From Medicago truncatula (lineage: Eukaryota; Streptophyta; Magnoliopsida; Fabales; Fabaceae), in NCBI RefSeq assembly GCF_003473485.1, contig NC_053044.1:56894091-56958090 (forward strand): DNA of 64,000 nucleotides, given 5' to 3'. Position 1 is the first letter of the stretch. Each line of letters begins with the position of its first letter. The position numbers and the translations under genes were made by a program. Under the pieces are notes generated by a model. It was given only the letters and a program-made list of their open reading frames with translations, made no database searches and was not told the DNA's origin. This document shows positions 20,501-62,722 of this stretch, piece after piece.

Positions 20501-21399
20501 GTTCTCTAAAAGTAATTAATCTTGCATGGTGAGAAATTTGCAAGACTGTTTGGATTGATTGTAACAAAAGCAAAAGGGACATGTACATTGCACACTTAGA
20601 GCCTGTTTGGATTGATTTGTTTGAGCTTATCTAATTACATAAGTTTTGCAAGATTGTTTGGGAGAACTTGTAAAACCCCACTAATGACATTTTTCATAAG
20701 CTTTTTACAGCTTATCTTATGAGTTATATGAATGAAAACAACTTTAGCATATATAAAAACAATGTAATTTAATTTTACCTTTTACTATAAAAATAGGTTA
20801 TGTAAGATTATACGCGTTAATAATAAGATATTTATCCGAATAAACAATGTAGTATCGTTCAAAGGCAAATGAATAAACATGAGTTATGAAATTGGGAATA
20901 TTTTAGAAAGGTTTGAATTGAAGTTGGTTCCACCTCAGAATACCAATCTTTGAAATTTTGATCCTTCCGATTGATGAGTCTTACGCCGGTCTCCGTTTCC
21001 ACCTCGTTCTTCATCTTGTCACCTGTAAGATGAAGCAAGTTACGAAATTAGTGCAAGTTAATATATATAATATACTCTCCGCGTGAGTGTGTCTGACTGT
21101 GTTGTATGTATGTAAACTTGGGGCTCAAGTATTTTACAATTTATAAATTTTGTATTATATTATCCAAAATTTAGTTTTTAATCTTTATAGCATTATCCTT
21201 TAGCATTTTAAGGACAAAAATTCTGATGAAAAATTTAGAGAGACTAAAAATGTTGACACAATTTTTTTACTTGGACTAAAATATTTAATTTTTTTTAGGT
21301 ACCAAAACCTAAATTTTGGATGTTCATAGGGACCATATACTTAATTTCAAAAATAATTATAAGTTTAAGAAAAAATTCATTCCGAAAATTTTAGGGGCC

Positions 21400-27600: not shown

Positions 27601-27937
27601 TGAATCAAAAAAAGCCTGCACATTTGTTTGAAATATGAAAGCAACTCTCAGCTAAGCAAAGCTTAACAGAAAAGAAAAGAAGCATTCAAATCGTTGAGAA
27701 ACATACTTGCAAAGTCTCCCATATTTCCACTGCCGATGGTCTCAGAATATATAAACCAGAAATATCATAGTGCTCAATCAATTTCGCACTAAAAACAACC
27801 TGTCAGAGCAATAGGTTAACTTAGGTTTAAAGTAGCTAGTTCGACCACGAAAAGTAGAAAAGAAATGTAGGTACCTCTGAATACCAGTGTTGGAAATTTT
27901 GATCCTTCCGATTGATGAGTTTTAAGAAGGTATTCAT
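24655..27937 (-). CDS. Prolyl-tRNA synthetase, class II, eukaryotic type (copy 2)
   Basis: The eleven coding exons are 27875-27937, 27707-27799, 27499-27615, 27050-27237, 26720-26786, 26312-26434, 26060-26212, 25687-25971, 25363-25581, 24900-24993 and 24655-24719. All splice in frame to 488 residues with no lesion seen. The enzyme would charge tRNA-Pro. Visible blocks are [18 protein letters not shown], the proline/ATP-site loop [12 protein letters not shown], motif 2 [13 protein letters not shown], motif 3 region WGYSTRTIGAMV with HGDDKG, the anticodon-binding part PLRIEI / WEEFKEAL, and the C-terminus with conserved cysteines (APWCDE, KTLCSPF) ending [10 protein letters not shown]. Compared with typical plant cytosolic enzymes, the N-terminus is short ([15 protein letters not shown]) and WEF in motif 2 is WVV. 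This may be a divergent paralogue rather than the main housekeeping gene. A non-coding first exon ends at 28043. Confidence 0.85.
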
Positions 27938-28042
27938 CTTGTTGCCTGTAAAACATTAGAATAGAGAAAGAGGAACGTGAAATGGTAACAAACGAGAGAA
28001 CGATGAAATCGAGTACTGTTCTTCTCTTTTAAACTCGGTTAC

Positions 28043-28115: not shown

Positions 28116-30105
28116 ATGGTCAGTCAAGCTTTTTGGATTTCTTAACCCTTATTTGTTTTTACCATAACCCGTTTGCTTTTTATATTTTTGAAAAAAATAA
28201 ATCTATAACAATTTTTTATAGTGTTTATTTATGATTTAAAAAAATAATGTGATTACAAAGATTTGAAAAAAATATAATCTAAAAAAAAAAGTGAATAGAC
28301 AAATTCGTCCCTGAATTTGCAATGACCAATCAATTTCGTCCCCCAATTTGTCAAAATAGTCTATGGGTCCTTGGATTAAAAAAAAAATAATAATCATTTT
28401 TAGCATCAAAATAAAAGTTATTCTTAGTAGCTTTTCTAGAAACGAAAATTATCTTTAGCTTTTTCAAAACAAACGAATCTAATGTCTCACTAGGATAGGA
28501 TCAAAGACAAGTTTAAATTATCCGTTCTTTTTTAAGTTACTATGATATTAGTACGAAGTTTCAACCGCCGTTTAATATTGACTAATCTCATTGGGAAACA
28601 TGCGGAGAACACAAGGTGAATTCTCCCACCCCAATCGAATTTTTCCATATGTGTGAACAAGAAATCGAACTCCTTGACCATATAAATATAGGACCAAAGT
28701 CCCTTACCACTTAAACAAAATTATGATAGAATATTTTTATTACATACATATCTCCTTATTTTGTGCATCAAACATGCCCAAATTTGAGAGTGTGTGGTAT
28801 GTAAACTTGGGTCCAAGAAAGATTTTTTATCATTTTGACAATTTATAATTTTTTTATAAACTAATTTATAAAGTTGATTTTTTACTTTCCTATGATGAAG
28901 ATGTAGATTTGTTAAATTAAACAATTAATTTATTCATTATTAGAAAGTGTTTTCTTAGTCATCAAGTTTTTTTGATAGTGGCCGGGGTTTGAACTCCGGA
29001 CCTTGCATATTTTATTCATTATCCCAACTAACTGAGCTAAGTTCACGAAGTTTTGAAATGCAATCTAATATATTTTGGAACGCAAACTAAAATACTTTGG
29101 AACACAATATAACATATTTCAGAACACAATCTGAAATATTTTGGTATATAATCTAATATATTTTGGTACTTGATCTGAAATATATTTTGGTACTAAATAT
29201 AATATACTTTTGTACTCGATAGGATATATTTTGGCACTCAATTTGAGATATTTTTGTACTATATCTAATATGTGAATTTTTCCAAAGTTTCTCATATATT
29301 AGTTGTGAATTTTCTCACATAGCGTAGGAAAAGTGAATTTTGTTACAAGCATGTCTCTTAGGTGCATGAATGTTGTGTTTACGAAAATTGATTTTGTCAG
29401 TCAAAAATATTTAACGGCGCAGACTTACCTTATATTCCTGTGTAATTAATCTTTGCTATATAAAATTACATTAAATTATATTATATTACTTCTAAAAATT
29501 AAATTGAATAAGGAGTTTTAACCATTATTAAGTTAAGACAAAATTTTGTTTCAGTTATATTTTGAATTCGATACCTCTTTCTCCAACTCTTGTGAGTGTT
29601 TCAGCCACTTAGGGGATACATGGTAGTGCTTCTATATGTTATTGGCAAATAGGATTTATATTACATCTTTTTATTAATTAGGTCAAATAATTTCCGCGAT
29701 CTTTTAGATTATTTTTAGAGGCTTTTAGGTTTCATTTCCTAAAAAAAAATATATATGTTTATAATAGATTTGTTCTTTTTTTAACAAACTAGTCATTTAT
29801 TTTATTTTTTAATAAATTGATCTTTTAAAATATAAAATATATACATTGTTACATGATTTTTCATCCAATGTCATTAAAAAGTGTATCCATTACACGATTT
29901 AACATTGAGTTGGTGGATCCAAAAATTATTTATGGCACCAAACATGATTTTTTCCACTCTTTGATACTAAATTCAGCATACAGATAAATGTTTGATGAAC
30001 GACATTATAAATCAAGTAATCAATCTATTTTGTTTAAAGCAAGACCTAAATAATACACTTATGAATCTTAGTTTTGAGAGTAGTGAATTTAGAAACATGC
30101 AAGTT
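28116..30105. other. Gene-free AT-rich DNA
   Basis: No gene is visible. The stretch 29,050-29,270 repeats 'atattttgg(a/t)ac..aatctaatat' in a loose tandem fashion. A SINE-like fragment lies near 29.0 kb. Confidence 0.45.
28975..29050 (-). repeat. tRNA-derived SINE-like fragment
   Basis: On the minus strand, 'ttagctcagttagttggg' (A-box) is followed by 'ggagttcaaaccccggcc' (B-box) and soon by an A-run. This is the typical head of a legume tRNA-derived SINE; the body is missing. Confidence 0.45.
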
Positions 30106-32548
30106 AGCATTAAACATTTTGTTTCGCAAATTATCAAATTTGGAAGCAGGTAATCTCACTCGCCCTTTCTCCTTAGAAGAAGTGAATCAAGCAGTGTGGG
30201 ATTGTGACAATTTTAAAAGTCCGGGACCCGATGATATTAGTTTTGATTTCATTAAACATTTTTGGGAGTTATTAAAGGATGATTTTATGCGGTTTTTGGT
30301 GGAATTTCATCGGAATGGGAAACTGACAAAAGGGTTAAATTCAACTTTTATAGCTTTGATTCCGAAAGTTTCTAGTCCACAACAGTTAACTGATTATCGG
30401 CCTATTTCTCTTGTTGGGTGCTTGTATAAGGTGTTGGCTAAGGTTCTGGCTAATAGATTGCGTATTGTTATTGGTAGTGTGGTTTCAGCGAATCAATCAG
30501 CTTTTGTAAAGGGTAAACTGATCTTAGATGGGATTTTGATTGCTAATGAAGTGGTTGATGAAGCGCGGCGTGCGAAAAGGGAGCTCCTTTTGTTCAAGGT
30601 TGATTTCGAGAAGGCGTACGATTCTGTGGATTTAAAATATCTTGATATGGTAATGGATCACATGAACTTTCCGACACTTTTGCGTAAGTGGATTAAGGAA
30701 TGTGTAGGGACGGCGAATGCTTCAGTTCTTGTTAATGGTAGCCCAACGGATGAATTCATTATTGAGCGGGGTCTTCGTCAAGGGGATCCTTTGTCTCCGT
30801 TTTTATTTTTGTTAGCTGCTGAAGGCTTCAATGTTCTTATGCAAGCATTGGAGGGGGCGCATCTTTTCAATGGTTATGGGGTTGGTCAAGCAAATCAGGT
30901 TCGGTTAACACATTTGCAATTCGCGGATGATACTCTTTTAATTGGAGAGAAAAGCTGGTTAAATGTGCGCTTCATGAGGGCGGTGTTGTTACTGTTTGAG
31001 GAGGTGTTCGGGTTGAAGGTAAACTTTCATAAAAGTATGCTCACTGGTGTCAATGTAACAGACTCATGGTTGTCAGAGGCCGCAATGGTTATGAATTGTA
31101 GAAAGGACTCCATTCCTTTTATTTATTTGGGCCTCCCTATTGGCGGTGATTCGCGGAAATTGAGTTTTTGGAAACCTGTTCTTGATCGCATAACGGCTCG
31201 CCTATCGTCCTGGAATAATAAATTCCTTTCTTTTGGTGGTCTTCTGGTATTGCTCAAATCTGTCCTGTCTTCTCTTCCGGTTTACTTTCTTTCCTTTTTC
31301 AAAGCTCCTACAGGTATAATTTCTTCTATTGAATCTCTTTTTAAAAGATTTTTTTGGGGGGGTGGTGAGGACATTAGAAAAATAGCTTGGATTAAATGGG
31401 AATCTTTGTGTGTCCCTAAGAAGTTTGGTGGTTTGGGGGTCAGGCGGGTGGGTGCTTTTAATATTTCTTTGTTAGGGAAATGGTGTTGGAGGTTGTTAAT
31501 AGATAAGAATGGGTTGTGGTATAGAGTTCTGAAGGCGCGTTATGGTGAGGATGGGGGGCGGTTGAAAGAGGGAGGAAGTCAGATCTCACTTTGGTGGCGG
31601 ATGATTAATAAGGTTCAAGAGGGGATTGGTGAGGGAGTTGGTCGGTGGTTTGATGACAATGTCCGTAGGGTGATTGGTGATGGTCGAAGCACTCTTTTTT
31701 GGCACGATACTTGGCTAGGGGACATACCTTTAAAATTAAAATTTCCTAGGTTATTTGATCTAGCTGAGACAAAGGAGAGGATGGTGGAGGAGATGTGGAG
31801 GTTGGGTTGGGAGGAAGAGGGAGGAGCGTGGGTGTGGAGACGACGATTGTTAGCATGGGAGGAAGAGAGTGTGAGGGAGTGTTGTGCTTTGTTACTTAAC
31901 ATTGTTTTGCAGGATAACGTCTGTGATACTTGGCGGTGGCTTTTGGATCCTGTAAATGGGTACTCGGTGCGGGAGTCCTATCGATATTTAACCCTTTCAG
32001 GTGTAAATACGGATAGGAACCTGGTGGATGATGTCTAGCACAAACATATTCCTTCAAAGGTGTCGTTGATGGTGTGGAGATTGTTCCGTAATAGACTTCC
32101 GACTAGAGACAATTTGATCCGACGGGGAACTCTTCATCTTGACGCTTCTACGTGCGTAACAGGGTGTGGGGCGTCCGAAATGGCATTACATCTTTTTCTC
32201 CTTTGCGACTTATCCAGCACTCTTTGGTTGGAGGTGCGGCGTTGGCTTGGCATTTCTGCAGTATCTACAGCTGATCTCCGACAACATTTCCAACAATTCT
32301 CAAAAATGGCAGGTTTGCCAAGGTCTTCTCATTTATATCTCACGATCATTTGGTTTGCTGTTGTTTGGGTTATTTGGAAGGAGAGGAATAACCATGTCTT
32401 TCAACAGACGGTTGCGACTCCCTTTATGCTTCTTGAAAGGATTAAGCTAAATTCGTTTTTATGGTTAAAATCAAAGCAGGTTTCTTTCAGTTACTGTTAT
32501 CACGACTGGTGGAAACATCTGCTCCCTTGCATGGGTATTACTGTGTAA
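30074..32548 (+). pseudogene. LINE ORF2 reverse transcriptase with one nonsense codon
   Basis: The frame is open from 30074 to a TAG at 32036-32038 and continues in the same frame to 32548. RT blocks in order are SPGPDDISFDFIKHFW, NSTFIALIPKV, DYRPISLVGCLYKVLAK, FKVDFEKAYDSVD, GLRQGDPLSPFLF, the catalytic LQFADDTLLI, and IPFIYLGLPIGG. A zf-RVT-like region follows the stop (KVSLMVWRLFRNRLPTRDNL). LINEs of this type have Trp where the TAG lies, so one G-to-A change explains the stop. No ATG-initiated start is claimed because the element is truncated. Confidence 0.85.
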
Positions 32549-36260: not shown

Positions 36261-37799
36261 TTAAAAAGTACCTGGAAGTGCCGTGCCCAAAACTTTGAAC
36301 TCCGTAAGATGCAGCCACTTAGTTGAAGCCCATTTATTTCCTCTAATTACCGGACTACCGCCTGAAAGCAAAGAAAAATTAAATAACTTCATCATTCATA
36401 TCTTCAAATTTCCAATGTGGAATGTAATATAGGTTTGAATCACATGGCTATAATTTGTACATAAAGTCCATACTTATAAATTTTTGAGGGAAAGGTGGAG
36501 ATAGAGATCACATACAACAACAACACAACCAAGCTTTATTCCACTATTCGGGGTCGATTACATGAATCAAATTATGTCATAATTTTCTATCATAAATCAT
36601 GTTTAGATCCAATTGCGGAGACAAAATGAGTTGGAGGTTCATAATGCAAATTCAGACGAAAGAGTAAATATTTATCTAATAAACTAACTACTAAAATTCA
36701 ACATTGAAAAAATATTTAGATCCAACTCATTAATCTATAGATTGTGTTTAATAGAGAATGTATACATATTTTACAGTTGAACGAGTTGCGGTTTTTAATA
36801 GATTCTAACCGTGTAAACTAGAAGTATCAAGTGTGCCATCTGGCTTCATGCTCCGAAACAGCAGAGCATCACCCATTTTTGGTTTCACTGATAGACCCTT
36901 TTCAGGATATTTGGATACAGAATTTATGTTAGGCTTAGCATTAGGAAATACAGTCTCACCACCTTCTTCAACGTCGGACCTTCATAAGGACCAAAAACAA
37001 GGAACTGTCAAATTTGTATACAATTCCATCGTAAAGCACAACGCAAAACCAATATATCGAAAGAGAATAAGGCTTTACAGATACATAAGAACTGTAGCAA
37101 CTCGCGGGCCTCCATTCTTAGTGACGACCCCACCAGCGGTGAATAACATGAAGTCCCTCGCCATTCTCTGCATATTTAAAAGTTAAAACAACATTAAGCA
37201 ACGGTTTAAAGAGTTCAGATTTGGGATGATTAAGAAAAAGACACTCGTTTGTGACAAGCAAGTTGCATGCAAATCACCTTAAATTTACTGTTTCACGAGA
37301 GGACCATCTACCGACACATTGAGATAGACTGCCACTTAATTAGAAAGAATAATGTGTCCAATGTTTCTAACTAAGGTCTTAAGACTTAAGTATATGTGCA
37401 ACAAGTTTGGCGTATTATGCACAATACTTCTCTATATATGCAGCAACAAAAAAAGATCAAGAGATGAAGAGAAACAAACTGGTAGACATAGATATCACAC
37501 AAAAAACTCATACCTACTGGTATGGAGGTAATATCAGCAATTCTCTGTTCAATATTCTGGACAATTTTGTCCTTTCCTCTCTCCAGAAACCTTCCTGAAC
37601 TAGTTCGAGCGCTACATGCAGGGGATATATTAAAAGTAATGCATTACCACTAAGACACTATTCTCTCAAGAAAATGTACATGAAAAAAATAATATGCAAA
37701 CCTGCTTTCTCTACCCTTTCCAGTCAAGCCATCAACAACAAGCGATCTTGTCATGAAAGGCTTGGCAAGATTGATCAAATGCTCACATTCTTCTTTTGA
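36261..37799 (-). pseudogene. Prolyl 4-hydroxylase-like pseudogene (copy A)
   Basis: The exons are 37702-37799, 37514-37611, 37079-37167, 36810-36979 and 36261-36361, equivalent to exons 4-8 of copy B. The exon that should hold the Fe(II)-binding HxD motif is 89 nt instead of 130. A 41-bp deletion removes HYD and shifts the frame to a quick stop. The next exon keeps [12 protein letters not shown] but reads FRSM where B and C have FWSM/FWSV. The C-terminal exon keeps [12 protein letters not shown] with the distal His and 2-oxoglutarate Lys. The first three exons are absent; homology to block 3 stops at about 38,268 at a GC-rich palindrome. It is dead as an enzyme. Confidence 0.85.
36513..36620 (-). 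repeat. RTE LINE 3'-end fragment
   Basis: On the plus strand 'caacaacaacacaaccaagc' leads into 'tttattccactattcggggtc' and 'acatgaatcaaatt'. This is the complement of the RTE 3' terminus seen intact near 46.56-46.62 kb. A related piece is at 40050-40150, so it predates the block duplication. Confidence 0.6.
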
Positions 37800-38255
37800 C
37801 TGTTCAAAATGATAGGAAAAGTGGACATTTTAATACAATATAAATTCCAACAGTTTAAGATCTCTCTCATTTAAAACTAAGATCTCCACTCAAACTCTGG
37901 AGTCTTTCAGAAAGTTCAAGTTTCCTGCAATCTGAATATTCCATGTATGAATATGAATACTAGATTTTCTTTTATCATTAACTACCATGAAAAACCTCTA
38001 TCTTTGTATAGTTTAATTTTCCATGACCCTAGCCTATGCTTACAGACATTACAAGTGCAATTGTATGCAGAACTCTATTCAATACTTGAAGAACTTAATC
38101 ATCCATACAAACATTTATTATTTAACTGATTTAAAAAATAATGTAAGATAAACAACAATTTTGGTCAAACGAGTGATGCGATGTCATTATAGTCACTTAA
38201 TGTATCGAAAGTGCAAACACAAAGTTTCTTTTTAGTTGGTTAGTTTGATCCTCAA

Positions 38256-38360
38256 ATGTGTTTTACATTACCCGTGCTATAGCACGGGTAGCGCGGCTGC
38301 GCCGCGCGACGAGACGTATGTCGTTGTGTGGCGAGGCATGCGCTAGGGCGGCATATATAT
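38256..38360. repeat. GC-rich palindromic transposon-like terminus
   Basis: ACCCGTGC-TATA-GCACGGGT (38270-38289) is a perfect 8-bp-stem hairpin, followed by 'agcgcggctgcgccgcgcga'. It lies exactly where copy A of the P4H-like gene loses homology to copy C. A hairpin of similar sequence marks the Helitron-like end at 47.5 kb, but no CTRR terminus is seen here. Confidence 0.4.
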
Positions 38361-39740: not shown

Positions 39741-42700
39741 TCAAAATGAAAAATCAAGAATAACAATAAATACCAATATATGCTCTGCTCTAGAAGTACC
39801 TGCATGTGTAGTGCCCGAAAGTTTGCACTCCCGAAGATGCAGCCACTTAGTTGAAGCCCATTTATTTCCTCTAATTACTGGACTACCGCCTGAAAGCAAA
39901 GATTAATTAAATAACTTCATCATTCATAGCTTGAAATTTCCAATGTGAAATGTAATATAAGTTTGAATCACATGGCTATAAGATTTTCTACATAAAGTAT
40001 ATACTCTATAAAATTTTTTTAGGGAGAGCTGGAAATAGAGCATAAATGCAGCAGCAGCAACAACAACAATCAAGTTTTATCTCGCTATACAAGGTTTTGG
40101 TTACATGAATCAAATTATACCATAATTTTCTATAATAAACCATATTTGATCAGACTGGAGGAGTTGGGTAGTTCAATTGGTTTGAGCAAAAACAAAATGA
40201 GTTGAGGGTCCTGGGTGCAAGCCCGGACAACAGATTATTAATGCAACAAACTAACGACTAACATTCAACATTTTTTTTTTTTGAAGGAGACTAACATTCA
40301 ACATTAAGAAAATATATATTTGGATCCAACTGATTAATCTATTGATTGTTTTTAATAGAGTATATATGCATATTTTAGGGTTGAACCATTTACAGTTTTT
40401 AATAATTTCTAACCGTGTAAACTAGAAGTATCTAGTGTGCCATCTGGCTTCATGCTCCAAAACAGCAGAGCGTCGCCCATTTTTGGTTTCACTGATAGAC
40501 CATCTCCAGAACATTTGGATACAGAAGTAAAGTTGGGCTGAGCATCAGGAAATACAGTCTCACCACCTTCTTCAACGTCAGACCTACATAAGGACCAAAA
40601 ACAAGGAACTGTCAAATTTGTATACAATTCCATCATAAAGCACAATGCAAAACCAATATATGGAAAGAGAATAAGGCTTTACAGATACATAAGAACTGTA
40701 GCAACTCGTGGGCCTCCATTCTTAGTGACGACCCCATCAGAGGTGTAATCGTAATGAGGCTCACATTTTTGCCCGACTCCATAGTGAATAACATGAAGTC
40801 CTTCTCCATTCTCTGCATATTTAAAAGTTAAAACAATATTAAGCAACGGTTTCAAGAGTTCAGATTTGGGATGATTAAGAAAAGGACACTCGTTTGTGAC
40901 AATCAAGATGCATGCAAATCACCTTAAACTTACTGTTCCACGAGAGGACCATCTACCGACACATTGAGATAGACTGCCACTTAATTAGAAAAAATAATGT
41001 GTCCCATGTTTCCCACTAAGGTCCTAAGACATAAGTATATGTGCAACAAGTTTGGTGTATTATGCACAATACTTCAATATATGTGCAGCAACAAGAGAAA
41101 AAAAATGAAGAGAAAGAGGCAAACAGGTAGACATAGATATCACACAAATACTCATACCTATTGGTACGGAGGTAATATCAGCAATTCTCCGTTCAATATT
41201 CTGGACAATTTTGTCCTTTCCTCTATCCAGAAACATTCCTGAACTAGTTCGAGAGCTACACAGGCAGGGGATATATCAAAAGTATGCATTACCACTGGAC
41301 ACATTTCTCAAGAAAATGTACATGAAAAAGAAAATGATCTACAATTATTGGAACCAATACAAAAAAAACACAAGCATAGGCAAACCTGCTTTCTTTAACC
41401 TCTCCAGTTACGCCATCGACAACAAGTGATCTTGCCATGAAAGGCTTGGCAAGATTGATCAAATGCTCACATTCTTCTTTTGACTGTTCAAAATGATAGG
41501 CAAAATGGAGGTTTTAATACAATATAGATTCCAACAGTTTAAGATCTCTCTCATTTAAAAAAAATATAAAAAGAAAGATCTCCACTCAAACTCTGGAGTC
41601 TTTCGGAAAGTTTAAGTTTCCTGCAATCTGAATATTTCGTGTATGAATGTGAATACTAGATTTTCTTTTATCACTAACCACCATGAAAAACCTCTATTGT
41701 CATATAATTTAATTTTCCATGAGCCTAGCCTATGCTTACAGACATTACAGGTACAATTATATGCAGCTCTCTATTCAATACTTGAAGAACTATATTGTGA
41801 TACATGTTAGATTAATTTTCTCTTCAACTGTCTTATGTATTCTCATATAAAGTTAGGTTTAAAATCGGTGTCCTCTCATACTCTCATATTAATTTTCACT
41901 TCTACTATCTTATGTATATTCTAAAACAGACCAGAAAATTGTGATACATGGAAGCTCTTGGAACAGATGACAGAATTTCAGTCCATTGATCCTTCCTTTC
42001 CGTCAAACTGAAATGCATTCCGGAGGCAACAATTACAAGACTTAAAAGATTATACACATTTCAAATCAAAATCAAACAGAATACCACTCACTTTATGATG
42101 TTTTCATCCTTCCTTTCCGTCAGTAATACTAATAAGCCGGTCTTTCTCTCAACCTTGTTATTCTTCTCACCTGTAAAACTTTGCCGTTAGAATAAGGTTT
42201 TAAATAACAATCTCAGTTCAAGTAGCGGTAAGGATTTCGAGATTCGGCTTCTACGCATGTTTATTTGCGGATTAAGGTGGAATAAATCACAACACACGAC
42301 CGCAGTGGAATTTTGTGAATAAGGGTGTTCTGTCGCGTTTGTTTCCGTGGTTTTTGTTCACTATACTAAAACGCACGGTGTTTTTGCGACAACATAACAC
42401 GCAGTCACGTTTAGAAACAGCAAACAAATTTTTTTTGTTTATTTTAATAGAATGAAAACTAAAAATAAAAAAGTTCACGTTATGTTTCAGTGATGTTGCC
42501 TATTATTTGACAACAAATTAAGATAAGTGCTTATTTGATTAAAGACGGAGATCAAAGAAATTAAGAAACCCTTATGAATGGATTACATATGCACGCACAA
42601 GCATCACGGAAGATTGAATAGAAAACACTGTAGGAGACATAAAGTTTTTGAATAGAAAACAGTAAAACTCTGATATCAAGTAGCAAGTTCATGAAAAATG

Positions 42701-42860
42701 AAAAGTAAAGAAATGAAAAATAAAATATAGGTCAGAGTCAAACTTGATTTTGATTTTAAAACTAGTCAATAAGTTAATCATTTGAAACAATCACGCACAG
42801 AAGCATACCTGAGTTGATAAATGTCGGATATTGTTGACTTCGCATGACCTTAGAGGTCAT
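39741..42860 (-). CDS. Prolyl 4-hydroxylase-like 2-oxoglutarate dioxygenase (copy B)
   Basis: The eight exons are 42809-42860, 42092-42170, 41932-42007, 41386-41483, 41158-41255, 40683-40812, 40414-40583 and 39741-39889. They splice in frame to 283 residues. The catalytic domain is clear: [54 protein letters not shown] with the HxD iron ligands, [18 protein letters not shown], and [16 protein letters not shown] with the distal His and the Lys that binds 2-oxoglutarate. Such enzymes hydroxylate peptidyl proline. Two features are odd. The N-terminus lacks the membrane anchor usual in plant P4Hs, and exon 2 ([23 protein letters not shown]) resembles the first coding exon of ProRS. The C-terminus runs past the usual end into a hydrophobic tail (..HILVFIVILDFSF). 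Confidence 0.75.
40050..40150 (-). repeat. RTE LINE 3'-end fragment
   Basis: 'gcagcaacaacaacaatcaag' leads into 'ttttatctcgctatacaagg', the complement of a decayed RTE 3' end. It is the counterpart of the fragment at 36.5 kb in block 1. Confidence 0.55.
40165..40245 (+). repeat. SINE-like tRNA-derived fragment
   Basis: 'gggtagttcaattggtttga' (A-box-like) is followed by 'gtcctgggtgcaagcccgga' (B-box-like) at tRNA-like spacing. It lies between the RTE fragment and the last exons of copy B. Confidence 0.4.
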
Positions 42861-43004: not shown

Positions 43005-43235
43005 TTATTTTATAGAGATTAGCGAAAAGATTCGTTTTCCGCTCTTATCATTAATAATTTTGGTTTGTTGTTTAGGGGTTTCTATAATGGGTGTTGTATT
43101 TTTATTTTTATTTTAATACATGAGAAATAGAAACCAAAATATAAAGCTTATGTGATCTGTTAGTGAAAGAAAAAAGGTGAAAGCATCTCTATTTGAGAGA
43201 AAATATAGTGTTGAATAATCCCAACAAATATCAAT
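43005..43235. other. Gene-free DNA upstream of the copy B P4H-like gene
   Basis: No gene is visible. It probably includes the promoter of the minus-strand copy B gene (first exon ends at 42860). Confidence 0.4.
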
Positions 43236-43325
43236 CCTTAGAGGGACACCTTTCATTTCCCATTCAGAAAACTGCCAAATACTCTTCGTACATATGCCTG
43301 TATAATTCCAATATCTCAAGAGCCT
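43228..43325 (-). pseudogene. ProRS exon chimera fragment
   Basis: On the minus strand, the start of ProRS exon 6 ([17 protein letters not shown]) is joined directly to part of exon 8 ([13 protein letters not shown]). In the real gene these are separated by 100 codons and two introns. It is about 98 bp long and cannot act as a gene. A MITE lies immediately beside it. Confidence 0.75.
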
Positions 43326-48559: not shown

Positions 48560-49545
48560 ATTAAATAGGGTTAATATAGTAAAATTAAGCAAAGAAGTTA
48601 GGTTAAATTTATAAAAAAAAATGTGTTCAGGTTAACTTTAAGGAATAAGAGATAAAGTGTTGAAATAAAGATTATCTGAAAGCGATTTGTTTTGTTCAAA
48701 AGAATAAGAGCGATTTAGGAGTGATTTTTTGCTTTTATTTTGATTAAATTAAATAGGATTAATTAAATATAGGGGTAATACAGTAAAATTAAGCAATAGG
48801 GTTCGGTTAAATTTAGGGCAACAATTAGCGTTCGGGTTAACTTTAAGGATAGGGTTAATTAAGCATAGGGGTAATATAGTAAAATTAAGCATTAGGGTTA
48901 GGTTAAATCTAGGGCAACAATTCGCGTTCGGGTTAACTTTAAGGAATAAGAGATAAAGTGTTGAAATAACGATTTTCTGAAAAGCGATTTGTTTTTTTCA
49001 AAAGAATAGGAGCGATTTAGGAGTGATGTTGCTTTTATTTTGATTAAATTAAATAGGGTTAATTAAATATAGGGGTAATACAGTAAAATTAAGCATTAGG
49101 GTTAGGTTAAATCTAGGGTAACAATTAGCGTTCGGGTTAACTTTAAGGATAGGGGTAATACAATAAAATTAAGCATTATGGTTAGTTTAAATCTAAAGCA
49201 ACAATTAGTGTTTGGGTTAACTTTAAGGAATAAGAGATTGTTCAAAAAAATAGAAGCGATTTGTTTTGTTCAAAAGAATAGGGTTATTTAAACATAGGGG
49301 TATTGTAGGAAACGATTAGGAACAATCTGTATCTGTATGATTTTTGTCTTGCAAACAAAATAGGAAGAATTTGTTAATAGGAGTGATTTGTTTTTTTTTA
49401 TGTTTATATGTTTAGTAGGAAATGATTTTTTTTTTTAAATAGGAGATTTCTGCAATTTGATATTTTAAACAGGGGTAATAAAGTAAAAGCAAACACTAAA
49501 TTTAGGTTAAAATTAGGGCAACAATTAGCATTCGAGTTAACTTTA
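48560..49545. repeat. Degenerate tandem array, about six units
   Basis: Units built from 'aggggtaatacagtaaaatt', 'aagcattagggttaggttaaat', 'ctagggcaacaattagcgtt' and 'cgggttaactttaagga' occur near 48.58, 48.77, 48.87, 49.07, 49.16 and 49.46 kb. Lengths vary between about 80 and 190 bases. It lies within the Helitron-like element. Confidence 0.7.
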
Positions 49546-49664: not shown

Positions 49665-50474
49665 CTCATAATGTGCAATCAAATTATTTAGTCATTGCCA
49701 TTAAAAAAAACAATATTTGGTCATTTTCATGCTTCTTCTCTTAGAGCATCTATAATGTAGCTCAATATTTTGTTTGTTAAAGTAGGTCTCATATGCATAC
49801 ATTACTCATTTTATAATATAGTAATGAACAAACACCAAATATATCCAAACCAACACCTCAACAAACGATTATTAAATGGATGTCATCAACCGTTTATATT
49901 TCATTACATTTCAATAAAACTTATTCATTTTTATACAATTTATTAAATGAAAAAGTGAAGAGAAAGAGGGAATAAGTGCTTCAAGTGTCACCATCCCCAC
50001 CACTGCAACGTGACACCATACAATCACCGCCTCACCATCGTCCACCACTGTTGTGGTTGCCACTGCCCTACTTTAAAAACATGTCCTCAAAACAAATTTA
50101 CAAAGTTTTTTTTTTCTGATCTCTAAACCAGTTATAAAATAAAGGGTTAATGGTGCTTTACCTCTTGTAATATAGGTCATTTTTTGTTTTCCCCCCTGTA
50201 AAATATTTTTTTTGATTTACCCCCTTGTAAAATATATTTTTTTTGGAATACCCCCTTAATAGGTCATATAAACGACTTATTTTAGAAAATTGTTTTTCAA
50301 AATGAAAAAGCAAGAAAAGAATACAATAAATACCAATACATCCTCCTACACAATCCTACATATCAAGTCAAACATAACTGAGAACTTAGATTTTGGGCAC
50401 AAACTTCACTTAATATTTGATAAATCGCAAGTAAAATTCGGACCCCTATTTGAGGAGAACAATTGCCTCATCCT
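49665..50474. repeat. Upstream part of duplicated block 3
   Basis: Shares 'ctcataatgtgcaatcaaat', 'tcaataaaacttattcattt' and the 'caccatccccaccactgcaa' region with blocks 1 and 2. A stretch at 50,145-50,280 ('acctcttgtaatataggtca', 'acccccttgtaaaatata') is extra and looks transposon-derived. The short open frame 50290-50478 is not convincing. Confidence 0.55.
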
Positions 50475-53400
50475 TTAAACTTTGAACTCCGTAAGATGCA
50501 GCAACTTATTTGAAGCCCATTTACTTCCTCTAATTACTGGGCTACCACCTGAAAGCAAAGATAAATTAATTAACTTCATCATTCATAGCTTCTAATTTCT
50601 AAAGTAGAATGTAATATAAGTTTGAATCACATGGCTATGATATTTTCAACATAAGTTCTATACTCTATTTATAAATATTTTACGAGAGAGGATTGTAAGA
50701 GTTTCTAACCATGTAAGCTAGCTGTATCTAGTGAGCCATCTGGCTTAACGCTCCAAAACAGCAGAGCATCGCCCATTTTCGGTTTCACTACTAAACCCTT
50801 TCCAGGATGATATTTGGATACAGAATTAAAGTTGGGCTTAGCATTAGGAAATACAGTCTCACCACCTTCTTCAACGTCAGACCTTCATAAGTACCAAAAA
50901 CAAAGAACTGTCAAATTTGTATACAATTCCATCATAAAGCATAATATAAAACCAATATATGGAAAGAGAATAAGGGTTTACAGATACATAAGGACTGTAG
51001 CAACTCGTGGACCTCCATTGTTGGTGATTCTCCAATTAAAGTTGTAATCGTAATGAGGCTCAAATTTCTGCCCGACTTCATAGTGAATAATCTGAAGTCC
51101 CTCTCCATTCTCTGCATATTTAAAAGTTAAACAACGGTAAATGAGAACAAATATCAAGCAATCAATCATGTCGCTCGATAGAGGATACATGGTGATATGG
51201 CAAAACATTTTTTTTTTCTTGACAAACTCATGTTTTAGAGATACTTGGCATAAGAAACGGTTTCAAGAATTCAGATATGGGATGATTAAGAAAAAAGACA
51301 CTCATTTGTGACAATCAAATTGCATTGCACATCACCTTAAATTTACTTTTTCACGAGAGAACCATCTACCGACGCATTGAGGTAGACTGCCACTTAATTA
51401 GAAAGACTAATGCAGGTAGACTGCCACTTAATTAGAAAGACTAATGCAACCAATGTTTCTCACTATAAGTTCTTCAGAGGGTCTTCAAGAAGTGATATGT
51501 GCAATAAATTTGGTGCATTATGCACAATACTTCAATATATGTGCAACAACAACTAAAAAAGGCTAAGAGATGAAGGGAAAGAGGCAAACATGTGTACACA
51601 GGTATTACACAAAAACTCATACCTATTGGTATGGAGGTAATATCAGCAATTCTCCGTTCAACATTCTGCACAATTTTGTCTTTTCCTCTCTCCAGAAATG
51701 TTCCTGAACTAGTTCGAACGCTACATGCATGGGATATAACAAAAGTAATGCATTACCGCTCGACACTAAGAACTCAAGACAATGTATATGGAAAAAAACA
51801 CAAGCATAGGCAAACCTGTTTAGTATACCCTGTCCGGTTACGCCATCGACAACAAGTGACCTTTGCATGAAAGGCTTGGCAAGATTGATCAAATGCTCAC
51901 ATTCTTCTTTTGACTGTTCAAAATGATAGGCAGAATGGACATGTTAATGCAATATACATTCCAACAGTTTACTACCACAAGAATTCAAAGAAGTAAACTA
52001 AGATCTCTCCCATTTCAAAAAAAAAAAACTAAGATATCCACTCAAACTCCGGAGTCTTTTAGAAAATTCAAGTTAGTTCAAGTTTACTGCAATCTGAATA
52101 TTCCATGTATGAATACCTAGATTTTCTTTTATATTAACCACCCAGAAAACCCTCTATCTTCGTACAATTTAATTTCCCATGAGCCTAGCCTATGCTTACA
52201 ACATTACAAGTGGAATTATATATTTCTCCTTGACAAACTGCAATATCATATATGCAGCCCCTCTATTCAATACTTGAAGAACTTAATCTTCCATACAATC
52301 ATTTATTATTTAATTGATTTAAGAAAGAAAGTAAGATAAACAGCCATTTTGGTCGAACGAGTGATGTGCTGCCATTATAGTCACTTAATGTATCGAAATT
52401 GCAAACACAACCTCAGGTTTCTTTTTAGTTGGTCGGTTTGGTCCTCAAATGTGTTTTTCGTTATTCAATTTAGTCCATAAAATTACAAGCGTCATTTTTT
52501 TTCAATTTTGATACATTTAGGGACTCTAACGACAGCGCCTCACGCTCACCAACCAAAATTGATGTTTACCCCAGGAAAATATTTCCAATCTCAAATGTTC
52601 AAAAACTAAATTCACAATTTAATAAAATGTATTGTGATAAATGTTAGATTAATTTTCTCTTCAACTATCTTATGTATTCTCATCTAAATTTAGGTTCAAA
52701 AATTGTTTTCCTTACATCCTCTCATATTAATTTTCTCTTCAACTATCTTATGTAATCTAAAACTGACCAGAAAATTGTGATACATGGAAGCTCTTGGCTC
52801 CGATGAAAGAACTTCAGTCCACTGATCCTTCCTTTCCGACAAACTGAAACAAATTCCGGGGGCAACAATCACAAAACATGAAAGAATAAACATATTTCAA
52901 ATCAAAATCAAATAGAATATCACTCACTCTACGAAGTTTTCATCCTTCCTTCCTGACAAACTGAAACGAAATCCAAAGAATCAAGAAACATGAAAGATTA
53001 AACACATTTCAAATCAAAATCAAACAGAATAACCACTCACTCTATGAAGTTTTTAGCATTCCTTTCCGTCAAACTGAAACAGATTCCAGAGGCAACAATC
53101 AAAAAACATGAAAGATTAAACACATTTCAAATCAAAATCAAACAAAATACCACTCACTCTATGTAGTTTTCATCCTTCCTTTCCGTTAAACTGAAATGAA
53201 TTCCAGAGGCAGCAGTCACAAAACACGAAAGATTAAACACATTTCAAATCAAAATCAAATAGAATAACCACTCACTCTATGAAGTTTTTATCATTCCTTT
53301 CCGTCAAACTGAAACAAATTCCAGAGGCAACAATCACAAAACATGAAAGAATAAACACATTTCAAATCAAAATCAATCAGAATACCACTCACTCTATGAA

Positions 53401-54520
53401 GTTTTCATCCTTCCGTTCCGTCAAACTGAAACGAATTTCGGGGGCAGCAATCACACATCATGAAAGATTAAACACATTTGAAATCAAAATCAAACAGAAT
53501 ACCACTCACTCTATGAAGTTTTTATCCTTCCGTTTAGTTCGTTTTAAGCTGGTCGCTGTCTCCACCTCGCTATTCTTCTGACCTGCAAAACTTTTCCGTT
53601 AGACAAAGTTTTAAAAAAGGATTTGTAGCCGAGAAAAAGGCCATGACGAAAAGGTAAAAGGTAGCTGTCGTTACAGTCTTCCCCGTTTTACATATTAAAA
53701 AACACTAAATAAAATAAAAATCACAATGAAACGCACTTAAGGCCGCACGACAAAACACCATTACTGCCGTAACAAAACGCAATTCATGAAAATAGACGGA
53801 GAATCACGTTATTTTTCAATTGAGGTGGATGAAAATGACATTTTTAGTAGAGAATTGAACATAGAATACATAATGTTATCCCCTTTGGACACTTTTTCCT
53901 AGTTTAGAATTTTAATTTTATCCTAATTTAAGTTAGTATATATATTATTTAAAAGTTGTGCAATGTTGTGATTAATTCACACCACACAACCCTTCTTTGT
54001 GACGTAGAATCCATTACTGCTGAGTTTGAGAAATCTTATAGGTGACCGCAGCCATTATTTAAAATCTTGTTAGTGTGCGTATAATGCCCAAGGACTTAGA
54101 AAGCCCATAATAAAATATAACCCTAAATCAACTAACTATCTATGATACCAAGAAGAGAAAAGCTGCCGTTTAATTTCATTCCATGTTCTTCCACCGTACC
54201 AAAAACAGCTTCGTGTCATGTTTCTTCTTTTTTATCATGATTTATGAGCGTGTGAGAGACATGCAGATAACCGGTGCAAAACTACTTTTCTAGGGTATAC
54301 AAAATGGAAAAAGATAAGATGACATATGTATGCAATTCGAAACGGTGATAAATAAGCGCAAGTGATGGTGGGGGTAAAACTCAACGGAAAATGAAATATA
54401 GGTCAAAACCAAACTTGATTTTGATTTTAAAAGTAGAGTGATTAACTATAATCATCAGAAATAATCATGTACAGAACTAACACAGAGTGTACCTGAATTT
54501 GGAGTGACCTTGCAGACCAT
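50475..54520 (-). CDS. Prolyl 4-hydroxylase-like gene with a tandem mini-exon array (copy C)
   Basis: I derive 13 exons: 54493-54520, 53510-53582, five mini-exons (53393-53425, 53276-53308, 53158-53190, 53041-53073, 52928-52960), then 52768-52843, 51816-51913, 51623-51720, 50982-51111, 50710-50882 and 50475-50548. All joins keep frame and give 304 residues with no stop. The catalytic domain is complete: [54 protein letters not shown] with Hx[19 protein letters not shown], and [13 protein letters not shown] with the distal His and the 2-oxoglutarate Lys. No signal peptide or membrane anchor is predicted from exon 1. Exon 2 ([18 protein letters not shown]) resembles the ProRS leader exon; the mini-exons add repeats of the type [11 protein letters not shown]. 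Catalysis of peptidyl-proline hydroxylation is family knowledge. Transcription and inclusion of the mini-exons are unproven. Confidence 0.75.
52921..53535 (-). repeat. Tandem repeat of about 117 bp, each unit containing a 33-nt mini-exon
   Basis: Units begin 'cactcactctatgaagtttt' on the plus strand at 52,921, 53,034, 53,151, 53,269, 53,386 and 53,503, a period of 113-118 bases. Read on the minus strand, each carries a pyrimidine-rich tract ending TTTCAG, a 33-base open segment and GTGAGTG. The remaining part, 'catttcaaatcaaaatcaaa', is intron. Unit 52,825-52,920 is the partial unit that leads into the catalytic exon. Confidence 0.9.
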
Positions 54521-54631
54521 CTTGGTTGTCAACAAGAACCGCGAAAGCTATTGACGTTTCTATTTTATTTATAATAGGAAGGGATGTCAAAGAACCGTTT
54601 CTGACAGTGACATGAGAGACTTGCGAGCGAC

Positions 54632-54667
<36 letters not shown>
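54632..54667. repeat. (TA)n microsatellite
   Basis: About 17 TA units lie just upstream of the copy C promoter region, beside the MULE-type element. Confidence 0.9.
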
Positions 54668-54670
<3 letters not shown>

Positions 54671-54720
54671 ACCAAATCTATTTATATAACCTTGGTTTGC
54701 ACAGTTTAGCTTTTATTTAA

Positions 54721-56343
54721 GGCTTAAATGTGTAAATCGTCCCTTTAATTTGGCGTGTTTTTGGTTTTCGTCCCTGTATCTTTTTTTGTTCTAAAACAAC
54801 TCCTGTAAGTTAATAACTTTTTGATTTTCGTCCCTCCCGTCAACTTCCGTTACAAAAACGCACATGTGGCAAACAGAGGATGACGTGGCAGACGATGCTG
54901 ACGTGGCAAACTTATTGATGAGTCACACGGTGAGAGGGACCAAAACCAAAAAACGAAATTTGTAGAGGGATCAAAGCCAAAAAAACAAAATTCGTAAAGG
55001 GACCAAAACCAAAAAGCGAGAAAAAAATAGCTTTCTTCATCTTCTTCCTTCCACCTCTTTTACATCTTCATCGTCTTCATAAATTCATCAAAAAACCCAG
55101 GAAAAAATACTAAGAAAAGAGATAAAAAAAAAAAAAAAAACTCAAAATCATCATCTCACTCTCAATAGACAACTTCTCACAAACCCAAACAAAATTCCAA
55201 TTGACAATGGTCAGATTGACATCTCAACACTAAAATCCACAATGTTCATAGTCCCAGCTAAACTTTTATTGATAATATCAAAATCAAATTATAACAACAA
55301 AATCCTCATTGTGAATGCTCGAATTCCCAATATTGAAAAAATTCACAAAATTCTCAAATTGAAAAACCTAAAGAATGATTTTTTTTTTCATTACCAACTC
55401 TCGTCTCATCATTGATCTCGCATCTCTGTTGTTTCTTGGTCACTCCAAATGCTTTCTTTGTCAATTCTTTGAACTCTAATCTCATCATTTTTGTTTCGAA
55501 CATTTGGGTCGTGTTCTTTTTTTCGGTTGATTTGGAAGATTGTTGTGTGAAATTGGATTATAAGAGAAAGGTTCAAGTTTGATATGAATATTCTTTTCAT
55601 TTGAATATTTAGAGGGATAATAAATAGAATTGAAAAGTATGTTGGAATGTTGAATTGAGATAAGTTTTATTTTAAACGATTTTAAAGTGTGTGAAATTGG
55701 ATTGCACGTTGAACGGTGAGTATATTGGTTTAATTTGATTTTGTTGTTTGTGAGAAGAAATAAAAGAGAAGTTATCACATGAAGGTATAATTGAAGGTGT
55801 TGGATTGAGTTTGTTGTTGTTTTGAGTTGATGGATTTTTGGATTTTGAAGTGATGAATTTATGTGTTTGTTTGATGATAATGATAAAGTTTATGAAGACA
55901 ATGATAGTAATGAAGAAGAAAATGTGGGAAGAAGATGAAGAAATGTAATTAAATTTGAATTTTTCGTCTTGTTTTTTGGTTTTTGTCCCTCTACAAATTT
56001 TGTTTTTTGGTTTTGGTCCTGGAAATAGTCAAGTCCATCTACAAATTTCGTTTTTTGGTTTTGGTCCCTTTACGAATTTTGTTTTTTTGGCTTTGGTCCT
56101 TCTACAAATTTCGTTTTTTGATTTTGGTCCCTCTCACTGTGTGACTCATCAATAAGTTTGCCACGTTAGGCACTACCACATCATCCTCCGTTTGCCACAT
56201 GTGCATTTTTGTAACGGAAGTTGACGGGAGGGACGAAAATCAAAAAGTTATTAACTTATAGGGGCTATTTTAGAACAAAAAAAGATACAGGGACGAAAAC
56301 TAAAAATACGCCAAATTACAGGGACGATTTACATATTTAAGCC
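54721..56343. mobile_element. Long-TIR MULE-type element, 1.6 kb, non-autonomous
   Basis: The ends GGCTTAAATGTGTAAATCG and its complement are the tips of arms that pair over about 270 bases, including 'gacgtggcaaacttattgatg' on the left and its complement on the right. The 9-bp TTTATTTAA is present at 54712-54720 and 56344-56352. The interior (about 55.0-56.0 kb) has repeated 'aaattt(c/t)gtttttttgg' motifs and no transposase. The small open frames in it look like chance. Confidence 0.85.
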
Positions 56344-59979: not shown

Positions 59980-60436
59980 GGATACATTAATCAATATGGG
60001 AACCGTGAATAACAATAGTAAATGCATGGGAACCGTGAATAGTGAATATATTGATTATGAGAACCTTGAATAAAAAGTTTTGGAAAAAGAGAATGGACAA
60101 GGGTAAATTAGGAAGAACATGAACAATTTTACATTGATATTGCAAAACGACTTATAATAATAAATTTATTTTGGTATAAAACCAATCAATTTCTTCTGGG
60201 CTTCTTTCACTCTTTTAGGTTCATTAGGGGTGTTATATCTTTCAGTTTCCAGTTATTATGGTAGACATTTTTTCTCTTTGATTTCATCTGAATTTGTAGT
60301 TCCTTTTTTGCCACAAGGGGTCACCCTGACTTTCTATGGAATCGCAGGTCTCTTTCTAAGTTTACATTGGTGGCTTCTAATTTTTTGGGACAAATGTTTT
60401 TTCCAAAGCGACTTACATTGTGGGACGGAGGGAGTA
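59980..60436 (+). mobile_element. Right end of a first mariner copy (R1)
   Basis: Sequence from 'atgggaaccgtgaataacaa' to the terminal repeat 'aaagcgacttacattgtggg' + 'acggagggag' (60405-60434) is a near copy of 63,519-63,731. The two differ by an insertion of about 230 bases near 60,150-60,385. The terminus is followed by TA (60435-60436), the mariner target. Confidence 0.75.
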
Positions 60437-61399
60437 TTTCTTTTGACCGAATACATCTTGACAAAGTGCCCCTACTCACGTCCAATGCTTCAGAAAGATC
60501 TCTAATAGTTGTTCTTTTTTTCAAAGGAATGTCACGAACTCGATCAAGGTCTACTTGAACTCTCTTGCGCCCACAATTTCCTGCCCTTTTACTAGACACA
60601 TCAGCATGCACTCCTTTGTTCTCGGCAAGTTTCCAAATACGTTGAACATACCGTATATGAAGTGAAAATTGCGACGCCACTAAGCTGGTCATTCCTCTTT
60701 TCAATTTTCCATCAACACTTTTCTCTAATAAAGCCTCATATATTAATCTTCTTTCAATATTAGACAACACCTTTCTCCTTCGTACCTCTGGTACTTCCAA
60801 ATCTGACATGTCATTGTCATTGTCTTCTTCTATATGTAGGATGAAATAAACATTATATAAGACGTTTTCATAGATTAATTATTAGAAAGAAAAGAAAACA
60901 AATTAAATAAATAGGATAAATTATACCCGTACATTCTAATCCAATATCTTCATGTAGTACATTGCTATTTTCTGCATAATTTTCTTCATACTGTTCACTT
61001 TCTAATAACACGCAAAAGAACATATAAGAACATGGAATGTAAAATAATGTTAAAAAAGAAAACTATAAATTAATTGATCAAGTTTGTAGTGTGAGAAAAT
61101 AAGACAAAGTTTATTCTTAACTACAATCATAAGATAGAGGCGTGAAGAAGCAATAAACGGATGTTTAGTTACTTACCAATATGCTCCTGGACATCTTCAT
61201 TCAAACATGTATCAAATGGTTGCACATTCAAGTCAAACGAAAATTGCAGTGGAGAATTTGGAATGATATTAAGATCAATATTTTGTGCTACATTGATGTT
61301 TAAATCGGGGAGATGATGCATTTCATTTGAATTTTGTTGCTGGACATCTCCATTATCAATTTCTTGATTAAAAATTTCAGATTCATGATTTGAAGTCAT
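60435..61399 (-). pseudogene. Mariner transposase, 5' half, inverted
   Basis: Exons on the minus strand are 61177-61399, 60927-61001 and 60435-60829, all with GT-AG borders and in frame. They encode an acidic, Asn/Asp-rich N-terminus with LDLN/DLNIIP-type stretches, then a helix-turn-helix DNA-binding region (VRRRKVLSNIERRLIYEALL, SQFSLHIRYVQRIWKLA, LSEALDVSRGTLSRCIRSK). The frame ends abruptly at a TA, where terminal-repeat sequence of the R1 end takes over. The rest of the protein is encoded on the other strand at 61791 onward. The apparent extra C-terminus of this frame is translated terminal repeat and is not real. Confidence 0.8.
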
Positions 61400-61760
61400 A
61401 TTAGTATGTTTTTGTTTAGTTCAATAATCTTAATTTATAGAAAAAATGAACAGCCACATACTAATTTGTTGGAGGAAAACTTGAAAAAATTTCATGAACA
61501 AATTGGAGGTTTTTTTATAAATCAAATGAAATTTTTCTTTACATGGGAGAAAGAGAGAAAAGGTATCGTTGCCTTGGTACATGCAATTGAAGAGAGAGAG
61601 AAGGAACCATATGAATTCATTGCCTTGGAGTTGGAGGAATGTGGGATGGTGGCAATTAAGTTGGAGTAATTGTGTTGCCAAGGGTAAAAGAGGAAAACAC
61701 ATATTTAATTTTAACAAAGTTCACAAAAGTTAAATATTTCTTAATATGCGTAAAAGTGTC

Positions 61761-61790
61761 AAAGCGACTTACATTGTGGGACGGAGGGAG
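61761..61790 (+). repeat. Mariner terminal inverted repeat (inverted left end, L2)
   Basis: The 30 bases are identical to those at 60405-60434 and nearly identical to 63702-63731, in the same orientation, and are followed by TA. As the 5' end of the minus-strand transposase half, this is the left end of the second mariner copy, now reversed. Confidence 0.85.
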
Positions 61791-62722
61791 TACGAAAAAA
61801 CTCAAATGCTATAAAACCTGCATTAACTGAAGGAAATAAGAAAGCTTGATTACAATTTTGCATATCAATGCTTGATAGTGCTAGCATAGATCGTGATCCA
61901 ATTTTCAAGGGGATGTATAACACCGTTCACATTGACGAGAAGTGGTTTTATTTGAAAGAAAAGTCGAAGAAGTTTTACTTGGTCCATGATGAAGAAGATC
62001 CAATTTTCAGTTGTCAAAGCAAAAATTACATACCAAAAATCATGTTTTTAGTGGCCATTGCTAGACCAAGATTTGATGCACAAGGAAAAGAAATATTCTC
62101 CGGGAAAATTGGTGCATTTCCCTTAATAACAAGAGAGCCAGCTAGAAGGTCTAGTGTAAATAGACCTGTTGGTACACTTGAGACAAAACCAATACAATCG
62201 ATTACTAGAAATGTCATCAAGAAATGTGTGCTTGAGCAAGTTGTACCTTCCATGATGGAACTATGGCCAATTGAAGAAAGGGGTCAACCAATATTTATTC
62301 AACAAGACAATGCAAAAACACACATTGATTCTGAAGATCAAGATTTTCGTTGTGTAGCCTCACAAAATGGATTTGATATTCGTTTGGTGCGTCAACCACC
62401 AAACTCTCCTGATTTAAATGTTTAAGATCTTGGTTTCTTTAGGTCAATTCAAGCCTTACAACACAAGAAGTCTCCTAACTCTGTTGATGATCTTGTGGAT
62501 GCAGTTCAAAAGTCATTTGAAGAGTATGACACTATCCTGTCAAATCGTATATTTTTATCACTTCAATCATGTATGATTGAAATCATGAAAGTAAAAGGTA
62601 CCCACAACTACAAGATTCCACATATGAAGAAAGAACAATTAGAAAGAAGAAAGGAATTGCCAACACAAAGGAAATGTGATATTCAATTGGTGCAAGAGGT
62701 TCTTAGTTATTTAGATCAATAG
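61791..62722 (+). pseudogene. Mariner transposase, 3' half (DD39D catalytic part)
   Basis: Starting at the TA, the frame encodes RKNSNAIKPALTEGNKKA and then the catalytic domain: HIDEKWFY (first Asp), FIQQDNAKTH (second Asp), NSPDLNV and DLGFF (third Asp, 39 residues after the second, the plant mariner spacing). TGA at 61847-61849 and TAA at 62422-62424 interrupt it; each is one base from the expected Arg and Leu codons. The frame ends at TAG 62720-62722. It matches plant mariner-like elements, relatives of Stowaway MITEs. It is inactive because of the stops and the inverted first half. Confidence 0.85.

Follow-up and report, generated by a model that had tools for sequence, protein, structure and literature searches.

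The RdRp gene of potato gained an intron when a tandem duplication ran across the boundary between an intron and an exon (PMC4974935), and in human segmental duplications internal tandem repeats have altered the gene structure of paralogues (PMC2812944). The micro-exon genes of schistosomes are differentially spliced, to judge by the title of DeMarco 2010 as cited in a review (PMC8293314), and plant microexons of 15 nt or less have strong signals in their flanking introns and show intron retention more commonly than skipping (PMC8831610). The locus considered here lies in a stretch of 64,000 nt from Medicago truncatula (contig NC_053044.1, positions 56,894,091 to 56,958,090), which I will call the window and whose first letter is position 1. 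A gene on its minus strand that resembles those of prolyl 4-hydroxylases (P4H), copy C, holds a tandem array of intron copies and 33-nt mini-exons. The best explanation of the whole is probably that C is a hybrid of a prolyl-tRNA synthetase (ProRS) gene and a P4H gene, ProRS::P4H, and that amplification of the join between them produced the mini-exons. C belongs to a cluster of P4H-like genes on the minus strand, of which A, B and C lie within the window and D about 10-13 kb past its end. B appears to be a sister hybrid gene.

The array occupies 52825..53531 (minus strand, as delimited by Tandem Repeats Finder and by alignment of the units) and consists of six copies of a chimeric intron with pieces of a hybrid exon. 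Tandem Repeats Finder reads it as 6.1 copies of 117 bp or as 3.0 copies of 235 bp, and its units are 82-94% alike. The six introns, in the order of the gene, are at 53426-53509, 53309-53392, 53191-53275, 53074-53157, 52961-53040 and 52844-52927 (84, 84, 85, 84, 80 and 84 nt). All run from GTGAGTG to TTTCAG on the minus strand, and each is AT-rich (63-70%) and has its own splice sites. The mini-exons between them, 33 nt each, are at 53393..53425, 53276..53308, 53158..53190, 53041..53073 and 52928..52960 (minus strand). In the window, the literal pattern TTTCAG-N33-GTGAGTG occurs at exactly these five places and it occurs in none of 100 shuffles: the array is far from chance. Its units of exon plus intron stand head to tail with their splice sites kept, as in tandem exon duplication, and the five mini-exons are symmetric (phase 2/2) in the manner of the micro-exons of schistosomes, which are not known to be copies of one amplified unit.

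A preliminary description, made from the sequence of the window, had already placed five open mini-exons of this length, strand and phase between TTTCAG and GTGAGTG at these coordinates, and it was correct. It also argued rightly that any number of mini-exons would remain in frame, the last 2 nt of the upstream exon being completed to a codon by 1 nt of the following exon, and its prediction of an 11-residue repeat in the N-terminus agrees with the exon anatomy. Its statement that B lacks the extra exons holds for separate exons, but exon 2 of B seems to contain the remnant of one. What it did not see is that the array appears to join unrelated ProRS and P4H genes and that B may be a collapsed array. 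It further suggested a minisatellite that codes for protein through alternative exon number; that is possible, and I will return to the evidence that bears on it.

Spliced through all five mini-exons, C has a frame of 304 open codons, with five 11-residue repeats ahead of a P4H domain that retains the HYD motif. The predicted start lies in exon 1 (54493..54520, minus strand), which is open and in frame with exon 2 and is the weakest part of the model. Its first ~20 nt and its frame are like those of 42809-42860 in B, from which it differs in length by 24 nt, and a search for a source of its sequence found none. Exon 2 (53510..53582, minus strand) is followed by the array and then by the first P4H-derived exon (52768..52843, minus strand), which reads LAEKKEQWTEILSWEPRAFVYHNFL and is homologous to exon 2 of D. 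The rest of the catalytic domain is encoded by 51816-51913, 51623-51720, 50982-51111, 50710-50882 and 50475-50548, all on the minus strand. The domain matches Pfam PF13640 (2OG-Fe(II) oxygenase) with E 5.8e-14 and the solved algal P4H 2jij with E 1e-63, and the frame is open through the HxD motif to the C-terminus. C carries, as predicted from these matches, a plant-type P4H domain.

An N-terminal membrane anchor is usual in plant P4H. D has the canonical form, with a hydrophobic anchor encoded by exon 1, an intron of 107 nt and then LAEKKEQWTEIL. C has in common with the plant P4Hs (relatives of algal 2jij/2jig) the 2OG-Fe(II) domain, the HYD motif and the exon structure of D after intron 1, and it differs from them at the N-terminus, where a ProRS exon and the array appear to stand in place of the anchor exon. 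The best 19-residue hydropathy is 3.22 in D, 0.2 in B and -0.61 in C (the last value depending on the modelled exon 1), and the anchor present in D is missing from C. Elsewhere in a 104-kb stretch, D exon 1 found one match at the level of chance (E 5.7). The cysteines at 224 and 259 in D are present also in algal P4H 2jij, while C has neither of them and B only one, near the first. Their loss from the catalytic domain of B and C would fit a move out of the secretory pathway.

Sequence comparison identifies exon 2 of C and of B as a captured early exon of a ProRS gene. Exon 2 of C matches the ProRS exon at 21016-20944 over 73 nt (blastn, 75%, E 4e-8). The homologous exons used here come from two ProRS copies in the window, at 20931..21023 (copy 1; tblastn E 7e-14 with the exon of the third copy) and 27872..27946 (copy 2; six residues shorter, tblastn E 2e-8), both on the minus strand, and from a third copy (L027) at 20514348-20514441 of C3, the contig that carries the window; the exon of L027 reads GEKMNNKVDIETGLRLINRKDENFEEWYSEV. 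The local alignment scores of C exon 2 with copy 1, L027 and copy 2 were 55, 53 and 33, none of which was reached by any of 1000 shuffles. B exon 2 scored 56 with L027 (0 of 1000 letter shuffles as high) and 25 and 21 with the two copies in the window (3 and 12 of 1000). The genome (430 Mb in 42 contigs) was searched with B exon 2, its intron and the start of the next exon, giving nine matches, a lower bound as are the other match counts from genome searches with the array and with the 3' exons of C. Eight were in B, C and D, and the one other was the L027 exon.

The exons that follow the L027 exon, when joined, give matches to NCBIfam TIGR00408 (proline--tRNA ligase) with E 5e-50 and 3e-45 (fragments that stay under the curated cut-off), and the L027 gene matches the solved ProRS PDB 5xif with E 7e-58. 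An open reading frame of the window matches HGTP_anticodon (E 3e-14), and its matches to tRNA-synt_2b and ProRS-C_1 fall below cut-off. When the three ProRS exons are aligned with B and C, the ProRS reading frame continues into C exon 2, which thus shows both kinship and frame. The ProRS catalytic and anticodon domains are not found in gene C by tblastn with eight ProRS exon peptides, and since only the first of the eight matches, C is not a ProRS. D exon 1 was also tried as the source of exon 2 or of its tail and was rejected (680 of 1000 shuffles scored as high for C and 314 of 1000 for B), the ProRS exon having been found instead.

The donor at the end of exon 2 can be read against its ProRS counterparts. 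The region is GAGTGGTATTC in L027, GATTGGTATTC and CACTGGTATTC in the other copies and GAGTGAGTGGTATTC in C; B has the same as C except for AAGTG. Four extra bases, common to B and C and absent from all three ProRS copies, create the donor GTGAGTG. Intron 1 of D can be aligned with the array introns of both B and C over the stretch that begins with TATTCTG and ends at the acceptor. I infer from these comparisons that an early exon of a ProRS copy was joined into P4H intron 1 at TATTC(TG) and that an insertion of 4 nt into the ProRS codons (GAGTGGTATTC to GAGTGAGTGGTATTC) yielded the donor, in phase 2. Since the P4H acceptor is in phase 2 as well, each gene would have kept its own frame.

The birth of the mini-exons may be explained by a word that the exons flanking the chimeric intron, one from ProRS and the other from P4H, share in the same frame, GGAAGGAT. 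A tandem duplication between the two instances of this word would copy the intron and leave a hybrid exon of 33 nt, having a P4H head (LTERKD) up to the word and a ProRS tail (ENFID) after it. The longest words that the ProRS exon of copy 1 shares with the P4H side are GGAAGGATCAA, with exon 3 of B, and GGAAGGATCA, with the last array exon of C, and the L027 exon shares AGGAAGGAT with exon 3 of B and only GAAGGA with the exon of D. Further unequal exchange or slippage, partly in steps of two units, would have brought C to five mini-exons, whose equal length and phase would be inherited by copying. The steps of two are suggested by the exon tails along the array (KDKN, KDEN, NDKN, KDEN, NAKN, KDEN), in which K and E alternate strictly over six, by an extra base common to array introns 3 and 5, and by the identity of the units, which at lags 1-5 is 86.4, 89.2, 86.1, 87.7 and 88.0%.

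B (39783..42860, minus strand, the low end being a chosen cut of the last exon and not a stop codon) has a single array intron, at 42008-42091, between exon 2 (42092-42170, the ProRS part with the putative mini-exon remnant) and an exon at 41932-42007, from which the gene continues; its exon 1 is at 42809-42860 (all minus strand). Exon 2 of B is six bases longer than that of C and carries a P4H-type head, TGACGGAAAGG, that is absent from the ProRS exons and from C exon 2. By appearance it is a fusion of a ProRS exon and a mini-exon, which is why B seems to have had one mini-exon or more and to have lost units, its array having contracted to a remnant.

A number of observations, some of them given in the paragraphs that follow, count against the reading of C as an amplified hybrid or against parts of it. 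Concerning the join, TATTCTG is found in only one of the three ProRS copies, copy 1 (TATTCCG and TATTCAG stand in its place in the other two), and since a word of 7 nt can also arise by chance, it is no proof of the point of joining. B and C lack the ATG that all three ProRS exons have; the start must therefore lie in exon 1, whose place in the model is owed to the likeness of B and C alone. The ProRS peptide of 31 residues, taken by itself, matches no Pfam family and in PDB finds only ProRS, with E 1.2; it is too short to prove a ProRS origin alone. The comparisons point to ProRS as the source of exon 2. Concerning growth, the excess at lag 2 is small, as lags 3, 4 and 5 show, and the maximum likelihood tree of the units places B inside those of C, with a single clade of C units unrejected (approximately unbiased (AU) test, p 0.111). 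The AU result and the mean intron distances, 11.0% within C against 14.6% between C and B, are what would be expected if the array had arisen in C alone, after the duplication that separated B and C, with B in the original state of one intron. This history is doubtful in view of the TGACGGAAAGG head in B exon 2, which points to loss of units, but that head could instead have come by conversion from B's own next exon. Growth in C and shrinkage in B have support, short of proof.

Whether the array is used is a separate matter. It is rather unlikely that it is a passive intronic minisatellite, in which splicing goes from exon 2 directly to the first P4H exon, the mini-exons being cryptic. Such an array would account for the divergence of the mini-exons, which is as fast as that of the intron cores (13.3% vs 12.5% pairwise), and the shortness of 33-nt exons together with identical donors and acceptors would permit skipping en bloc in frame. 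Against it are the form of each intron, a unit of 80-85 nt with sites of its own, and the constancy of the splice signals: none of 11 columns (the usual ones, donor +1 to +6 and acceptor -5 to -1) varies among the six introns, as compared to 27 of 85 columns overall (p 0.011) or 22 of 85 when substitutions only are counted (p 0.029), both p values being optimistic because the columns were fixed after the recurrence of GTGAGTG and TTTCAG had been seen. The preliminary description had pointed to the openness of all the mini-exons, which is true but uninformative: in a neutral simulation at about the observed number of changes (mini-exon 2 was assigned three changes where two are observed), 67% of sets of five remain open, so that openness was rejected as evidence of use. 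Relative to their consensus the mini-exons show 12 changes, of which 9 are non-synonymous and 3 synonymous. Selection on the mini-exons themselves was rejected, there being no signal of it in these counts and no excess of conservation over the intron cores.

Possible, though on the doubtful side, is that C is dying or silent and that the array is drift in a pseudogene. It would fit the loss of the ProRS-exon ATG, the poor conservation of exon 1, the truncation of three other P4H-like copies (A and the two called L011 and L012 below) and a dN/dS of about 0.6, which is weak constraint. Over the gene, however, there is an excess of synonymous change (dN/dS 0.61 for B-C, one-sided Fisher p 0.037, and 0.63 for D-C, p 0.019; for D-B it is 0.67 and not significant, p 0.080), in tests that used rounded counts and pooled the lineages, the B-C test thus not being specific to C. 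Also opposed to decay are the frame, open over 304 codons with the HYD motif kept, and the scarcity of indels in the P4H exons, where B and C differ by one indel of 3 nt and one end difference in 646 bp, as compared to 23 indels in 1133 aligned bases of intron. The length differences between B and C in exon 1 (24 nt) and exon 2 (6 nt) are both multiples of 3. The invariant splice signals, the long frame and the few, in-frame indels of the P4H exons modestly support use of the mini-exons. In all six cases a retained array intron leads to an immediate stop, and the full protein would therefore require splicing. The likeliest case is that several of the mini-exons, or all of them, enter the mRNA by splicing and encode a charged repeat of 11 residues ahead of the P4H domain, in a product that would not have D's membrane anchor; exon number may vary between transcripts and between accessions. 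The idea of free exon skipping is tempered by the finding that retention is commoner than skipping for plant microexons (PMC8831610).

It is improbable, though it would extend the hybrid reading furthest, that the chimeric intron is a self-propagating exon maker, by which linker length varies through germline copy number and splicing and is exploited by selection or development; each gain or loss of a unit would then be exactly 11 residues, because the joined exons share an in-phase word. Hardly credible is a plus-strand reading of the array as coding for a repeat of 39 residues (117 bp being 39 codons). There are 114 open codons on the plus strand at 53237-53578, but an open plus-strand frame follows from a unit length divisible by 3, and the frame is broken by the introns whose length is 85 or 80 nt. 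The open run is best regarded as a by-product of the 117-bp unit.

A genome search with 601 bp of the array found at least five places, all in C, in B (one unit) or in intron 1 of D. The 3' exons of C, as a DNA query, gave at least 12 matches, which besides A-D lay in four other places. In two of these the copy is truncated: in L011 (contig C5, 16.52 Mb) likeness to copy C starts within the first P4H exon, and in L012 (contig C3, 23.42 Mb) in the intron after it. The other two (contig C5, 23.21 Mb, and contig C2, 43.71 Mb) are short P4H pieces only. The array sequence had no match in the 10-kb stretches around any of the four. Copy A (36290-38264, minus strand) is truncated as well, since none of the 5' exons of C is matched in it and the stretch with the HxD motif is absent.

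The two ProRS copies of the window (18093-21023 and 25687-27946) stand in tandem and share the strand of the P4H cluster. Their other exons were placed by tblastn at 18093-19989 and 25687-27799 (minus strand). Copy 1 may be decaying, since the sixth of eight exon peptides is unmatched in it and the last is in two pieces. A collapsed ProRS remnant lies 5' of copy B, at 43227..43325 (minus strand), in which parts of two exons from further along the ProRS gene stand next to each other (blastn, 93% to 26436-26381 and 94% to 25760-25714). Intron 1 of C contains, at 53599-54075, a dispersed repeat that has at least 46 matches, including C itself, the others being 67-82% identical (40 of 67 candidates scored); it ends about 17 nt before the acceptor of exon 2. 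A search of 50000-55000 for RNA families gave no match at the gathering score. Elsewhere in the window, as judged by eye, there are a long reverse-transcriptase-like frame of a LINE-type element (30065-32545, plus strand) and, at 60324-62719, frames on both strands resembling a mariner-type transposase of plants and the sequence around it. At 48565-49229 lie tandem repeats of 16, 80, 96 and 300 bp, nested in one another.

The steps by which exons are born are usually blurred by age. Here each stage, from the fusion through the donor and the word of the duplication to the growth of the array, is legible, because ProRS, D, B and C all lie within about 60 kb. If the mini-exons are in the mRNA, the locus would serve to test how splicing deals with a series of identical donors and acceptors, and to test minisatellite variation in which whole blocks of codons are added with no frameshift. 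Among the literature titles and starts of abstracts surveyed none names this locus, the coverage being partial and the absence weak evidence, and the main text of a rice micro-exon paper (PMC6600660), as far as available, contains neither "tandem" nor "duplicat". The kinds of event are known; in the literature surveyed, their combination and legibility are unmatched.

The closest systems each resemble C in part. The micro-exon genes of schistosomes are similar in form, with exons of 36 bp or less that are symmetric and removable in frame (PMC8293314). The repeats in human segmental duplications are, like the array, of minisatellite type, found in recent paralogues, different in number between copies, often in frame and in some cases at exon-intron boundaries; their place is within exons or at boundaries, and new introns can arise from them, whereas each unit in C is a whole intron and a whole mini-exon (PMC2812944). 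The MaSp2 silk genes of Argiope also have iterated small introns and exons, some in an alternating order of two units, but they encode a structural protein, and the mean likeness of the introns of one gene is 97.6% (94.3-99.7%), as compared to units 82-94% alike beside an enzyme domain in C (PMC9779670). The RdRp gene of potato is likewise a plant gene. In it, tandem duplication of an intron and part of an exon added one more intron and one more piece of exon, the acceptor signals having come from the parent intron (PMC4974935). There a single duplication is documented by 106 RNA-Seq reads; C, known from its genomic sequence alone, has six intron copies, signs of growth in steps of two units, and a parent intron that would itself be a chimera between two genes (PMC4974935 for the potato gene).

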